Assembly: GCF_018069705.1 (NCBI RefSeq)
Contig: NZ_CP072943.1
Location: forward strand, 682,001 to 746,000
Direction: 5' to 3'
From: Aminithiophilus ramosus
Lineage (GTDB): Bacteria > Synergistota > Synergistia > Synergistales > Aminithiophilaceae
Length of the DNA stretch: 64,000 bases
In this document: positions 12,683-18,531 of the stretch, one piece after another
How the letters are laid out: each line of letters begins with the position of its first letter
Position numbering within the stretch: the first letter of the stretch is position 1
Made by a program: the position numbers and the translations under genes
The notes under the pieces: generated by a model
Told to the model about the DNA's origin: nothing
What the model saw: only the letters and a program-made list of their open reading frames with translations
Databases searched by the model: none

Positions 12683-14086
12683 TCAAAAGCGATAGAAAAT
12701 GCCGAGAGAGTCTCGGTTCTCCCCGCGTTCCTCCATCCGTCGATGAAAGAGCCCCCAACTCTCATTCAAATGAAGCCGCTCCTCGACGCTCCAGGCGCCT
12801 CCGCCCTCATCCCACCAGCGCCAGCGGAAGGAAAAAGGCACTCCCCAGGGCGAGAGGCGGAGGAGCACGCCCCCACCCGGCTCACCGCGCACGAGCCCCC
12901 CGAAGAGGTCGACGCCACGCCACAGGGGATAACCGACGGTGGCCGAAAAGCGGTCCTCCGCGCCTACGTCCTCCGTGGAAAGGGAGAGACGCCAGGGACT
13001 CGTCGTCCGGTAAAGATCCATGTCGATATCGACGAGACGGGAGCCGTCGTCGAGACCGGATGTGGCCTGATGGAGGGCCAATTCTCCCTCCAAACGGAAC
13101 GATTCCATGCCCGAAAGAAGACGATCGGCCTTGGCAGCCGACGACTTGAGATTCGAGAGGGTCGACGGCTTTCCCCCTTCACCTTCAGGGACGAGCAGAT
13201 CCTCTCTGAGTCCTTTGGCCAGCTTCTCGACCTCGCCGGCAGCTCCGCTCAGGTTGTCGATGGCTCGGCGCAGCTCCTTCCCCGAGAGGCCATCGGCATC
13301 GAAATCGGCCAGAACGGAATCGAGGCGGACCAGCAGTGACGCCAGACTGGAAAGAGCGGTGTGAATCGATTTTTCGTTGTCAGCGACGACGCCGTGAAGG
13401 GATTGAGACAGCTCTCTCAGCTCCGCCCCCAAAGCGGCCAACTCCCGTCGCGCCTCGTCGGCGAGGAGACCGTAAGAGGCAGCCGTTCCGCGAAGATCAC
13501 CGGCAAGCTGCCCGTACGCGTCGGCAGCTTGGCCGATGGTATCCACCATCGCTCTCCCTTCGTCGAGCAGAAGGGGAAGACTTTCGACCGATCGTTTCAG
13601 GCCGGCCTGAACCGTCGCATCGCCGAGAAAGGCGTTTACGTGGGAAAAGGTCTCTCGGACCTCGGCAAGATCCTCCCCGACGCGTGAAAGGACCTCGTCG
13701 AAAGAGAGCGGGATTTCGCCGTCGACCTCCTCTCCGGCTTTCAGAACCTCCGCGAGGGAACCTCTTTTGACATCGATCCTCGACTCGCCCAGGAGGCTCC
13801 CCGAGTCGATGACAAAACGACTGTCGCGGGGGATGGCCACGTCGGGAGCGATGTCAAGACGAACCCGAACGCCTCCCGGAACCAATTCGATGGAGCTGAC
13901 TCGACCTCTTTCGACGCCAGAGACAAGGACAGCTCCTCCCTCCTCGAGACCACGCACGTCAGGGAAAGTGACAAAGAGATCGAATCCTTTCTGCCGCCAC
14001 CGGAGACCTCCGGTCACGGAGACCAGAAGGGCCAAAAAAAGGAGGCCCAAAAAGACGACAAAGCCGACTTTCACCTCTTTACTCAG
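12683..14086 (-). CDS. mlaD: MlaD-type MCE protein with C-terminal beta-barrel-like domain
   Basis: About 467 aa. It has a single N-terminal membrane helix (residues 8-25), then an MCE domain with the strands and RGLEEGGAVLVSGV-type turns that carry lipid. A long helical region with few breaks (about 120-330) follows. The C-terminal 110 or so residues alternate polar and aromatic residues and end in Phe (IFYRF), like an outer-membrane strand signal. This layout matches MlaD fused to an outer-membrane barrel, as described for Veillonella parvula, where it bridges both membranes. CTG 14086 is the likely start: it follows GAGAGGGGG and gives MSKEVKVGF, while GTG 14074 lacks spacing for a ribosome site. 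It overlaps the mlaF stop. Confidence 0.85.
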   Translation of the reverse strand: MSKEVKVGFVVFLGLLFLALLVSVTGGLRWRQKGFDLFVTFPDVRGLEEGGAVLVSGVERGRVSSIELVPGGVRVRLDIAPDVAIPRDSRFVIDSGSLLGESRIDVKRGSLAEVLKAGEEVDGEIPLSFDEVLSRVGEDLAEVRETFSHVNAFLGDATVQAGLKRSVESLPLLLDEGRAMVDTIGQAADAYGQLAGDLRGTAASYGLLADEARRELAALGAELRELSQSLHGVVADNEKSIHTALSSLASLLVRLDSVLADFDADGLSGKELRRAIDNLSGAAGEVEKLAKGLREDLLVPEGEGGKPSTLSNLKSSAAKADRLLSGMESFRLEGELALHQATSGLDDGSRLVDIDMDLYRTTSPWRLSLSTEDVGAEDRFSATVGYPLWRGVDLFGGLVRGEPGGGVLLRLSPWGVPFSFRWRWWDEGGGAWSVEERLHLNESWGLFHRRMEERGENRDSLGIFYRF

Positions 14087-14849
14087 GGTGACGAACCCCC
14101 TCTCTGATCGGCAGCTGACCACGGGCAAAACGACGAACCGTCGGATGGTCGGCCCTCTCCCACTGGGAGGGAAGACCGCACCAGGCGACGCGTCCCTCGT
14201 CAAGGAGGGCGATACGGTCGCTGATTCCGAAAGCCGACGTCAGATCGTGCGTCACGAGAAGGACACTGAGTCCCATCTGTCGCGCCAGCGAAAAAATCAG
14301 GCGATCGATGTGGCGAGCCGTCTCCGGATCCAGTCCCGTCGTCGGTTCGTCGAGCAGAACCAGTCGGGGCCGATAGACCAGGGCCCGGGCGATGGCGGCC
14401 CGTTTGCGCATCCCTCCCGACAGTTCCGAGGGATAGCGATCCTCGACGCCGGCCAAGTCCACCTCCTCCAAGGCGAGACGGACCTGAGCGGCAATGGCCC
14501 CGGCTTCGGTCATGCCGAGGCAGTAGCGAAGAGGAAAGGCGATGTTCTCGGCGACGGTCAGAGAATCAAAAAGAGCTCCTCCCTGGAAGACGACGCCCAT
14601 CTGGCGCCGAAGTGCCCCCTGAGATCGGGAAGCCTCCTCGTCGAGAAGGTTCTGCCCGAACACGGAGACGCTGCCGCCGTCGGGAACGGTCAGTCCGGCA
14701 ATGATGCGGAGGACCGTCGTCTTGCCGCAGCCCGAGGGCCCCATCAGGCCGAGGATGGTGCCCTCTTCGAGGGCCAGATCGACACCGTCCAAAACCGTCT
14801 GAGAGCCGAAGGCTTTGCGGAGGCCCCTGATCTCCACCAGCTGAGCCAT
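14079..14849 (-). CDS. mlaF: Mla lipid-transport ATPase
   Basis: The ABC ATPase that powers lipid exchange by the MCE complex, on the cytoplasmic side. The 256-aa protein has Walker A GPSGCGKTT near residues 37-45, a Q-loop, the signature LSGGMRKR, Walker B LVLLDEPTTGLD and the H-loop in LVTHD. LSGGMRKRAA is characteristic of the MlaF subfamily. It follows mlaE with a one-base TGATG overlap and precedes mlaD. The order mlaE-mlaF-mlaD is standard; no mlaB or mlaC is present here, as in other systems with transenvelope MlaD. Confidence 0.95.
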   Translation of the reverse strand: MAQLVEIRGLRKAFGSQTVLDGVDLALEEGTILGLMGPSGCGKTTVLRIIAGLTVPDGGSVSVFGQNLLDEEASRSQGALRRQMGVVFQGGALFDSLTVAENIAFPLRYCLGMTEAGAIAAQVRLALEEVDLAGVEDRYPSELSGGMRKRAAIARALVYRPRLVLLDEPTTGLDPETARHIDRLIFSLARQMGLSVLLVTHDLTSAFGISDRIALLDEGRVAWCGLPSQWERADHPTVRRFARGQLPIREGVRHPE

Positions 14850-15625
14850 CAGGAACCCCCGAAAAGAAAGGCCGAAAGGATGTAGTTGAAGATCAGGATC
14901 AACATATTCCCCCAGATGACGGCCTGAGTCGTCGCAGCGCCGACGCCGCGGGCTCCCGTCTCGGCGTGAAAGCCCTCGGAGCAGGCCGTGACGGCGATGA
15001 TGGCCCCGAAGAGGGCTCCTTTGAGAACGCCGCCGAAAAGATCGGCCGGTTCGAGCAGGACCTCGATGGAGCGCCTGAACATCTGAGGGCTGATCCCATG
15101 GGCGTAGACGTAGAGGAAGCCGCCGGAGATCCCGATGACGAAAGAATAGACGGTCAGAAGAGGCAACATGAGAAGGGACGCGAGGAATCGGGGAACGCCG
15201 ACGAAAGTGACGTCATCGAGGCCGAAGGCCCTGAGGGCATCGAGCTGCTCCGTGACTTTCATGGAGCTGATCTCCGCTGCCATGGCGGCACCCACCCTTC
15301 CCGTCACGACGAGGCCCGTCAGCACGGGCGACATCTCGCGGACGAGGCTGAGTGCAAGGACGCCGCCGATAAACGACGTAGCCCCGAAGCGTACAAACTG
15401 ATCGAGCGTCTGCACGGCCATGACCATGCCCACGAAGGCGCTCGTCACGGAGACCATGAAGACCGATCCGACGCCGATGCGCTCCATCTGTTCCAGCAGC
15501 TCCCGTCGACTCCATACTCCCCGAAAAAAACCGCTGAAAGAGTGGGAGAAAAACAGGACAAAGAGCCCCAGGCGCTGGAAAAGCCCTAAGGCATGAGCAC
15601 CGAGCCAGGCAAAAAAGGACCTCAT
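14849..15625 (-). CDS. mlaE: Mla lipid-transport permease
   Basis: The 258-aa inner-membrane permease of the MCE lipid transporter. It has five or so membrane segments and the family motif region MVSVTSAFVGMVMAVQ near residue 60. The motif MAAEISSMKVTEQLDALRAFG, in which the coupling helix contacts the ATPase, starts near residue 115. ATG 15625 has a GGGGGTGAGAG ribosome site. It starts the mla operon 22 bases after the S55 gene, so the mla genes may share a transcript with that gene and prfB. Confidence 0.95.
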   Translation of the reverse strand: MRSFFAWLGAHALGLFQRLGLFVLFFSHSFSGFFRGVWSRRELLEQMERIGVGSVFMVSVTSAFVGMVMAVQTLDQFVRFGATSFIGGVLALSLVREMSPVLTGLVVTGRVGAAMAAEISSMKVTEQLDALRAFGLDDVTFVGVPRFLASLLMLPLLTVYSFVIGISGGFLYVYAHGISPQMFRRSIEVLLEPADLFGGVLKGALFGAIIAVTACSEGFHAETGARGVGAATTQAVIWGNMLILIFNYILSAFLFGGS

Positions 15626-15647: not shown

Positions 15648-17404
15648 TCAGGGATTGCCACCTTTGATCGTCACGATACGCCTCATGAGCCCTTCAACGT
15701 AATAGTTGGAACGGAAGATGCGGAGTGTCCCCTCCTTGAGTCGCTCCGATTTGACCTCGCTGAGCAGTTTCTGCTCCTCCTCCGCGCCGGACAACGGATC
15801 TTTGGGCGGCACGATCAGCTCCACGATGACTTCGTTGTTGGACTCTTTCGCATCGACTTCGGTGAGAAGCTGCTCCAGATCAGTGATGGAGCGCCAGCCG
15901 GCGAGAAGCGATTCCTGTTCGGGCTCGGCGATGCCTCCGCCTCGGACGACGACCTCACAGGGGCCGGAAGCTTCCGCCGGGACATCGAGGCTGAAGGTAC
16001 GCGTCTCCAGATCCTTGCGGTAGGGACGCAATTTGACGGTGACTTCGACTTTCTTCCCGGCCTCGACCTCTTTGTCCTTGAGCGTCACATCCTCGATGAA
16101 GAGAACGCGAGGCTCTCGGGTTATTTCCACGTCAACATCGATTCCCAGGGGAAAGATCTCCCTGAAGGGGTTCAACGTGACCAGCTCCGTCAGAAAACGG
16201 ATGTCGCCGACGGCGGCGCCGATGACGTCACTCCCCGAGAAGAACATGTTCTTGCGCGTCCACCCCTCGACGAGATTGCGTCCTTCCAAACGGACAGAGG
16301 CTCGAACCGTCCCCTCGCCCAGCCTACCCCAGAGATCGTCGAGGAGGCCCAGGAGGGCCTCGGGAACGACGTTGGAAACGATGAAGGGGTCATTGACCAC
16401 CTGAAAGCCCTTTTTTAATTCGCGCCTCATATCGACGTCGCGAAAGGTCACGGATACGGCGACGGCCGGAGGGAACTGGCCCAACTGCCCGCCGATGGCT
16501 GCGGTCGATCCTGAGTGACCGTTCCCACGATCGCTTTGGCCTCTCCGAGCTTGAAGGGAGCCTCCAGGCTGGGGACAACGGCGTGAACGACGGAACGCGT
16601 CAAAGGGTAGGCGACAGGGCCGCGACTGAGAAAGGGATGAGCGAAGGCGACGAAACGTCCCGCCCCGTCAAGAGCCGTCAAGGTCCCCGTCGCGCCCAGA
16701 GAGACATCGCCCCAGGCCAGAAGGACACCGACGGCGGCTCCCGGAAGAGGCTTCCAGTCGGTCTCGACAGGCAGGGCGGCCTCTCCGCCACTCCCTGACA
16801 GGCCTTCGATGCGGACTCCCAGGCGGCTCGCCAGAGCCGAAGAGGCCCTGGCGCTGATTCCGTCCGAGAGGAGTACCATCTGTTCCTCGACATCGCCAGA
16901 AAGGAGGTCGTCGGAAAGGAGGACCTCCTCGAGGAGCGTGTCGCCCTCCGAACCGGCAAGAGGCACGGGGTCAGGCATCCGAGTGGAGGTGGCCGGCCAG
17001 TTCCAGGCACCGGCCATTTCGTCTATGGGAGTCACCAGGCCCAGGCGGTGATCGCTGAAGTTCCAGCCGTAACCGATGGCGCCCACAAGACGGCCCTCGA
17101 TGAAGACGGGGCTTCCGCTCATTCCTGCGGCGATGCCTCCTGTCTTTTCGATCAGGGGACCTTCGGCGCGAATGAGAATCAAGGTGTTGGGACGGCTTTT
17201 TCGCTGAAGGATGCTGACGACCTCCAGGGGAAAGGCAACGATCTCCTCTCCGGAAAGCACCGTCCTCGCCTCGCCTCTTTGGCCGGGACGGACATCTCCG
17301 AGGGGCATCGTCGGCGTAGAGGAGAGGAAAGGAGATCCCCAGAGCAGCGACGGGTTGAGAAAGAACAGCAGCAGAGCAAGGGCCACGGTTTTTGACGTTT
17401 TCAC
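15648..17404 (-). CDS. SpoIVB-type serine peptidase (family S55), apparent frameshift
   Basis: Two frames make one protein of about 585 aa. The N-terminal frame from GTG 17404 gives a signal peptide (about residues 1-24), then a peptidase S55 domain with the nucleophile motif GMSGSP at about 94-99. A region with AFAHPFLSRGP follows. Near 16510-16520 the coding frame changes by -1: one frame ends its similarity at TVTQDR and the other resumes with AAIGGQLGQFPP, which is the expected continuation. The C-terminal half lies outside the cytoplasm. SpoIVB cuts SpoIVFA during Bacillus sporulation; a non-spore-former would use it otherwise. The start follows GGAGAGG at 17414-17420. The frameshift may be a sequencing error or real inactivation. 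Confidence 0.75.
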
Positions 17405-17429
17405 GATCCCATACCTCTCCATCGGGAAG

Positions 17430-18531
17430 CTACAGACTCTTGCTCCATCGCAGGTAGGCAAAGATGAACGGATCAAGGTCTCCATCGAGAACGGCCTGCA
17501 CGTTGCCCACTTCGTACCCCGTCCGGTGGTCTTTGATCATCAGGTAGGGGTGGAGAACGTAGGAGCGGATCTGACTGCTCCAGCCGATTTCCTTTTTCTC
17601 GCCCTGAAGGCTCTCCAGCTGCTCCTGCCGTTCCCGCTGCTGGCGCTCGAAAAGCTTGGCCCGAAGGACCGTCATGGCCACCTGGCGGTTGGCGTGTTGT
17701 GAACGCTGATCCTGACAGGCCACGATGATACCCGTCGGAATGTGGGTGATCCTGATGGCCGAATCGGTCATGTTGACATACTGCCCCCCGGCGCCACTGG
17801 CCCTGAAGGTATCCAGTTTGAGATCTTCGGGCCTGATGACGATCGCCGCGTCATCGGGTAGCTCTGGCGCCACCTGGACGGATCCGAAGCTGGTGTGACG
17901 TCTTTTGGCGGCATCGAAGGGAGAGATGCGCACCAGGCGATGGACGCCCACTTCGGCACGGAGATAGCCGAAAGCGTAGGGCCCTTTCACCATGACGGTG
18001 GCGCTCTTTATTCCCGCCTCTCCGTCATCTTGGATATCGAGGACCTGAGCCTGGAAACGCCGCCTTTCAGACCAGCGGAGGTACATCCGGAGCATCATCT
18101 CGGCCCAATCCTGAGAATCGAGTCCTCCGGCACCGGCATGGACGCTCAGGATGGCGTTGTTCTCGTCGAACTCTCCATCCAGAAGCAGCCGGGTCTGTCT
18201 CTCTTCGATCTCCTTTTCGAAAGCCGCAGCCGCCTCGTAAAATTCCGACGTCAGCTCGAGATCACTTTCCTCGGCGAGAAGTTCCGCGAGAGCCTCCAGG
18301 TTCGCCAGGTTCTCCGATACGCGCCGCCACTCCTCCTTGAGCTCCTGCAGATGAGCCAGTTCCCGACTTATATGCTGAGCTTCGTCCTGTTCCCAAAAAC
18401 CAGGCTGAGCCGTCTTGTCCAGCAGCTCGCTCTCTCGCCTCTCCTTGGAAGAGAGGTCAAAGACTGTCCTGAAGAGCCCTAGCAAGGCCCCTCAGTTCCT
18501 CCAGTACCGTCGAAATAGGAAGCTGAGCCAT
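17430..18531 (-). CDS. prfB: Peptide chain release factor 2 with programmed +1 frameshift
   Basis: RF2 ends translation at UAA and UGA. A 24-codon first frame from ATG 18531 ends in CTT-TGA; skipping the T at 18459 gives the +1 frame, which runs to 17430. The joined protein has 366 aa and reads ...LQDSL-DLSSKERR..., aligned with the known RF2 junction. The site CTTTGAC (18456-18462) is the conserved one. The SD-like element before it is weak (AGGA). SPF (about 203-205) recognises UGA, and GGQ (about 248-250) triggers hydrolysis. Low RF2 raises frameshifting, so the gene controls itself. AGGGGG precedes the ATG. Confidence 0.96.
18456..18462 (-). promoter_or_regulatory. prfB +1 frameshift site
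   Basis: CTT-TGA-C on the minus strand. The ribosome pauses at UGA when RF2 is scarce and slips forward by one base. This is the established autoregulation of RF2. Confidence 0.93.

Follow-up and report, generated by a model that had tools for sequence, protein, structure and literature searches.

The mlaEFD operon of Aminithiophilus ramosus encodes a 467-residue MlaD in which an MCE domain is followed by a long helical span and a predicted ten-strand beta-barrel. We consider it probable (roughly 80%) that the operon specifies a minimal MlaEFD lipid transporter that crosses the envelope in the manner of Veillonella parvula, an estimate that covers the whole explanation, including the hexamer, the tunnel, the outer-membrane anchor and the retrograde cargo. 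The domain order, the barrel fold, the operon and the lack of any detectable MlaA, MlaC or second MCE protein were computed directly. The window analysed is a 64,000-nucleotide stretch of the genome (contig NZ_CP072943.1, positions 682,001 to 746,000), and its relevant features are as follows.

15648..17485, minus strand: S55 (SpoIVB-type) peptidase gene, upstream of mlaE and split by a one-base frameshift (PF05580, E 6.9e-11)
14849..15625, minus strand: mlaE, permease (PF02405, E 3.1e-70; TIGR00056 above cut-off)
14079..14849, minus strand: mlaF, ABC ATPase (PF00005, E 3.9e-35), adjoining mlaE and mlaD, with its 3′ end overlapping the mlaD start
12683..14086, minus strand: mlaD, encoding a long MCE protein of 467 aa with a predicted barrel (begins with CTG at 14086; stop codon 12683-12685)
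14003..14080, minus strand: N-terminal transmembrane helix, residues 3-28 (AlphaFold helix and hydrophobic run LLFLALLV)
13763..13981, minus strand: MCE/MlaD domain, residues 36-108 (Pfam and Foldseek)
13106..13702, minus strand: amphipathic helical span of residues 129-327, presumed to line a periplasmic tunnel (AlphaFold at low confidence, hydrophobic moment, Foldseek)
12686..13099, minus strand: predicted C-terminal ten-strand beta-barrel domain, residues 330-467, a tail of 138 residues (AlphaFold, Foldseek, amphipathic alternation)
12686..12715, minus strand: C-terminus RDSLGIFYRF, resembling the beta-signal of outer-membrane proteins (OMPs) (G462, Y465 and F467 invariant in 29 relatives)

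MlaD and its operon

An earlier note, made from the letters of this DNA, had read the frame at 12683-14086 as an MCE domain followed by a long helical span, and both Pfam and AlphaFold agree with it. The MlaD/MCE domain lies at residues 36-108 (PF02470, E 8.9e-15) and matched the E. coli MlaD structures 5uw2, 5uw8 and 8hq9 with a TMt of ~0.8 (Foldseek); the TIGR04430 MlaD match of the product (E 2.8e-19) falls under that model's equivalog cut-off. The full-length AlphaFold model, built with 12 relatives aligned, contains the transmembrane helix, the MCE domain, helices at 129-327 and ten strands at 330-466. CTG is the apparent start codon of both mlaD (14086) and tmk (12640) on the minus strand, with good ribosome-binding sites upstream (AGAGGGGG and GAGGTGAT). 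Of these two starts, the congener L062 shares the CTG of mlaD but has TTG in the tmk position; in L072, mlaD begins with TTG.

The genes are arranged in the order S55 peptidase-mlaE-mlaF-mlaD-tmk. The earlier note had found no mlaA, mlaB or mlaC beside mlaD, which is correct, but mlaD does not stand alone as mlaF and mlaE are directly upstream. The note had also allowed for mlaA and mlaC being encoded elsewhere; a search of the whole single-contig genome (3.1 Mb) for MlaA (PF04333) and MlaC (PF05494) gave no match, and was positive in the E. coli and Caulobacter controls. Among the operon genes there is no MlaB, and the genome has no second MCE protein, so that this MlaD, with its one MCE domain, is the sole one. 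LpxC is present and lipid A is therefore probably made. The LptD Pfam model had no match, but the same model fails on Synechococcus and Bacteroides as controls and its silence is uninformative; the TamB model gave only a weak match in this genome.

The frameshift in the S55 peptidase gene, at ~16498, is a change of GG to G relative to Synergistota bacterium strain L-13 (CP074691.1), where the gene is uninterrupted over 629 codons. Across 13.4 kb the window and CP074691.1 share 99.8% identity, and this deletion is the only indel; it is either a true mutation or a sequencing error. The peptidase was considered as a dedicated Mla partner and dropped, since 158 of 188 Synergistota genomes carry the gene, mostly ones without mlaEFD. 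Wherever that stretch was examined in the phylum, the S55 gene adjoins prfB.

The predicted C-terminal barrel, the helical span and a proposed mechanism

When the tail was folded alone (AlphaFold, about 14 relatives aligned), the model contained ten strands with a mean pLDDT of 92.4 and a pTM of 0.81. The nearest solved folds in Foldseek were almost all OMP barrels, with probabilities near 1, and included OmpX, TMB10_163, Ail, NspA, OmpA and KdgM. OmpX matched with an E of 4.2e-4, and TMB10_163, a designed ten-strand transmembrane barrel, with a TM of 0.58-0.60. The TM-scores against eight-strand OMPs were low (0.31-0.37) and only two matches passed an E of 0.001; soluble beta proteins ranked below the OMPs and with lower probability. 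In a viral protein library, the best named structural matches were likewise outer-membrane barrels. A soluble domain at the C-terminus would have spoken against the earlier note, and what was modelled instead is this ten-strand fold with OMP barrels as its nearest neighbours. No family was assigned to the tail by Pfam or NCBIfam and its profile found no sequence relative among PDB chains; the fold comparison thus carries the assignment.

The composition of the tail is in part that expected from the earlier note, which had described alternating polar and hydrophobic residues, an abundance of Trp and Gly, and a final Phe. Trp accounts for 5.3% of the tail versus 0.3% of the remaining MlaD, whereas Gly is only mildly enriched (13.3% versus 11.4% in the remainder). 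The tail is also Arg-rich, which we counted against the barrel reading. Polar/hydrophobic alternation by strand was greater than in shuffles (p 0.006-0.008 for the single sequence; for 29 relatives, none of 5000 shuffles reached it). As the strands came from the AlphaFold model, the result shows consistency with that model and is no independent test.

The C-terminal end is strongly conserved. A G-x-x-Y-x-F motif was kept in all 29 relatives, and the final residue of this MlaD is F. Of the 29 aligned sequences, 28 end in F and one in ...YQFSK. A G-x-x-Y-x-F ending is of the kind that BAM reads. The genome encodes an Omp85 protein and therefore has a barrel-insertion machine. By analogy, the predicted barrel would reside in the outer membrane, and the C-terminal signature is consistent with this.

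The helical region was modelled with low confidence (pLDDT mostly 33-51, AlphaFold monomer). In all five of its helical stretches the hydrophobic moment peaked at 100-104 degrees, giving each a hydrophobic face. The best full-length Foldseek match of the MlaD model was to the Mce1 chains of M. smegmatis (8fed-8fef, E 2.3e-13), and the alignment to 8fed/8fef extends along the helical region. A role for the helical middle as a tunnel wall is therefore plausible on these models. Among the MlaD proteins of the phylum, the length of the tail hardly changes (132-141 aa) while that of the helical span ranges between 159 and 202 aa, the pattern that a fixed anchor would show on rods of differing length. 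If fully helical, a span of 159-202 residues would measure ~24-30 nm (at 0.15 nm per residue); the V. parvula MlaD model is ~23.5 nm long, against a periplasm of ~24 nm (PMC10665443).

We propose an inner-membrane ABC core composed of MlaE (permease) and MlaF (ATPase). MlaD, probably in six copies, would have its N-terminal helix in the inner membrane and its MCE ring stacked on MlaE, and the ~160-200 residues of amphipathic helix in each chain would form a hydrophobic tunnel from one side of the periplasm to the other. Each chain's ten-strand barrel, inserted by Omp85/BAM, would pin the far end of this tunnel in the outer membrane, making an MlaC shuttle and an MlaA lipoprotein unneeded. The barrel would serve as an anchor or docking element rather than as a lipid pore, because ten strands are too narrow for a phospholipid. 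The most likely cargo would be glycerophospholipid, moved from the outer to the inner membrane and driven by MlaF. In this scheme the hexamer and tunnel, the insertion into the outer membrane, the cargo and the direction are all modelled on V. parvula and E. coli. The suggestion in the earlier note of a one-protein bridge between both membranes is supported if reworded as a homo-oligomer, probably a hexamer, acting with MlaE and MlaF, which on this analogy would reach across the periplasm. The difficulty of placing six barrels in the outer membrane counts against the scheme, a problem also raised by the V. parvula authors (PMC10665443).

The C-terminal domain could be a soluble beta-barrel or beta-sandwich that lies outside the membrane, capping the tunnel or docking on an outer-membrane partner. 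The model for such a cap is PqiB, which docks on PqiC. Weaker Foldseek matches that include TesB thioesterase, 25-phosphosteroid lyase and a lipocalin, together with the Arg-rich composition, point in this direction. We nevertheless judge a soluble cap quite improbable, as nearly all of the top matches are OMPs scored at a probability close to 1, the designed transmembrane barrel among them; the invariant G-x-x-Y-x-F is a feature of BAM substrates with no obvious role in such a cap; and the V. parvula barrel, in a homologous arrangement, is recovered in the outer-membrane fraction (PMC10665443). Strands from several chains might alternatively merge into one larger, lipid-conducting outer-membrane barrel, comparable to TolC or the six-stranded Mce1 barrel, in place of separate anchors. 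Fusion of the barrels was proposed as a possibility by the V. parvula authors (PMC10665443) and would overcome the narrowness of a lone ten-strand barrel. However, the monomer model already has a complete and confident ten-strand domain resembling the closed barrel of the designed TMB10_163, and a shared barrel is very unlikely.

Transport might also run outward (anterograde), or carry a hydrophobic molecule other than phospholipid. Sequence does not reveal the direction, the cargo of barrel-type MlaD is without direct measurement in any phylum, and bidirectional flow was left open by the authors of the V. parvula study (PMC10665443). In the same study, mlaD mutants had outer-membrane defects and outer-membrane vesicles enriched in PE, and were suppressed by loss of tamB, phenotypes that are consistent with retrograde phospholipid transport; we therefore regard outward transport or another cargo as unlikely. 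The preferred reading remains a separately anchored MlaD that would carry phospholipid towards the inner membrane.

Distribution and loss of mlaEFD in Synergistota

The distribution of mlaEFD in Synergistota is new here. Both mlaD and mlaE were found in the same 31 of 188 genomes, and lpxC in 167 of the 188. Considering only good genomes (completeness of 90% or more, contamination of 5% or less), mlaD was present in 21/21 from eight families (f1-f4 and f9-f12) and in 0/95 from the other four (f5-f8). The five f1-f4 genomes without mlaD are 56-87% complete and also lack the S55 neighbour; these absences are therefore most likely assembly gaps.

Carriers have the gene order prfB - S55 peptidase - mlaE - mlaF - mlaD - tmk - holB - ricT - ftsY, and the operon is kept in every relative having these genes on the contig. 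The S55-mlaE-mlaF-mlaD order also occurs in f11, whose genomes are related to this one at no level below the phylum. Where f5 and f7 genomes were examined, tmk directly follows S55, while in three f6 genomes the S55-tmk gap holds a single unrelated gene on the opposite strand. The f8 genomes and one f6 genome still have S55 after prfB, with tmk elsewhere. In the f5-f8 loci (L105-L117), mlaEFD is missing between the S55 gene and tmk and lpxC is retained. The opposite-strand gene at the mlaEFD site in f6 is aminopeptidase-like (M18-like by eye) and lies at 7269-8675 in L107, 7400-8758 in L108 and 7225-8673 in L113.

Assembly gaps were rejected as the cause of mlaEFD absence in the other families, as complete single-contig genomes lack mlaEFD and have the flanking genes adjacent. 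Survival of the barrel as a separate protein was also considered, and no genome without MlaD gave a match to the barrel profile at an E of 0.01. Because the gene order is common to both orders of the phylum, the pattern is one of loss and not gain, and because the flanking genes adjoin in families without mlaEFD, the three genes were lost as a unit. On a six-gene tree two changes were needed (bootstrap range 1-3). We conclude that mlaEFD was lost one to three times in Synergistota; a single loss may be compatible with the tree.

The absence of Mla in some diderm Terrabacteria has been attributed mainly to absent LPS or an atypical envelope (PMC10665443). In contrast to that 2023 account, most Synergistota have lpxC and no mlaEFD. 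Tentatively, and at somewhat less than even odds, barrel-type MlaEFD may have been the ancestral and only MCE route of Synergistota, with most members having deleted the cassette while still making lipid A and returning or balancing their outer-membrane phospholipid by an unrecognised route. If true, this would run against the proposed link between Mla absence and LPS loss or an atypical envelope. The split between presence and absence of mlaEFD is sharp, falls inside a single phylum that makes LPS, and leaves the surrounding genes identical in either case. It offers a natural experiment, as outer-membrane lipid composition and permeability can be compared between closely related diderms that have the proposed bridge and those that lack it. 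This clean loss pattern adds somewhat more interest than the protein itself.

Comparison with known systems

The E. coli MlaFEDB-MlaC-MlaA system has the same MCE fold (TMt ~0.8 to 5uw2/8hq9), MlaE and MlaF. E. coli MlaD differs in being only 183 aa, with no long helices or barrel, and in needing MlaC and MlaA, neither of which was detected in this genome. Mycobacterial Mce1 (8fed-8fef) resembles the present protein in its transmembrane helix, MCE domain and long helices, which form a tunnel in Mce1; it is, however, a heterohexamer of six different subunits that each give one strand to a small shared barrel, whereas here the predicted barrel is of the ten-strand outer-membrane type. PqiB and LetB (YebT) are MCE proteins that bridge the periplasm alone, using several MCE domains per chain and no OMP barrel, unlike the single MCE domain of this MlaD.

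The closest likeness is to V. parvula, where Grasekamp et al. (2023) described an MlaD of 419 aa with a transmembrane domain, an MCE domain, ~150 helical residues and a ten-strand barrel (PMC10665443). The layout noted earlier as that of Veillonella is thus apt: both proteins have an N-terminal transmembrane helix, one MCE domain, long helices and a C-terminal ten-strand barrel. Both are also encoded in mlaEFD operons with an mlaF/mlaD overlap and, as the V. parvula operon is described, without MlaA, MlaB or MlaC. They differ in length (419 versus 467 aa), in the helical span (~150 versus ~200 residues) and in their neighbours, which are tolC and tamB in V. parvula and the S55 peptidase gene and tmk here. 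Barrel-bearing MlaD was reported as widespread in diderm Terrabacteria, from 103 sequences; Synergistota are unmentioned in the main text of that paper, and their MlaD is possibly already among the 103 (PMC10665443). The barrel-type design has therefore been known since 2023 and the Synergistota protein is a further example. It adds another phylum in support of regarding a transenvelope Mla of three proteins as the basic form, to which the six-component system of E. coli would be an exception.
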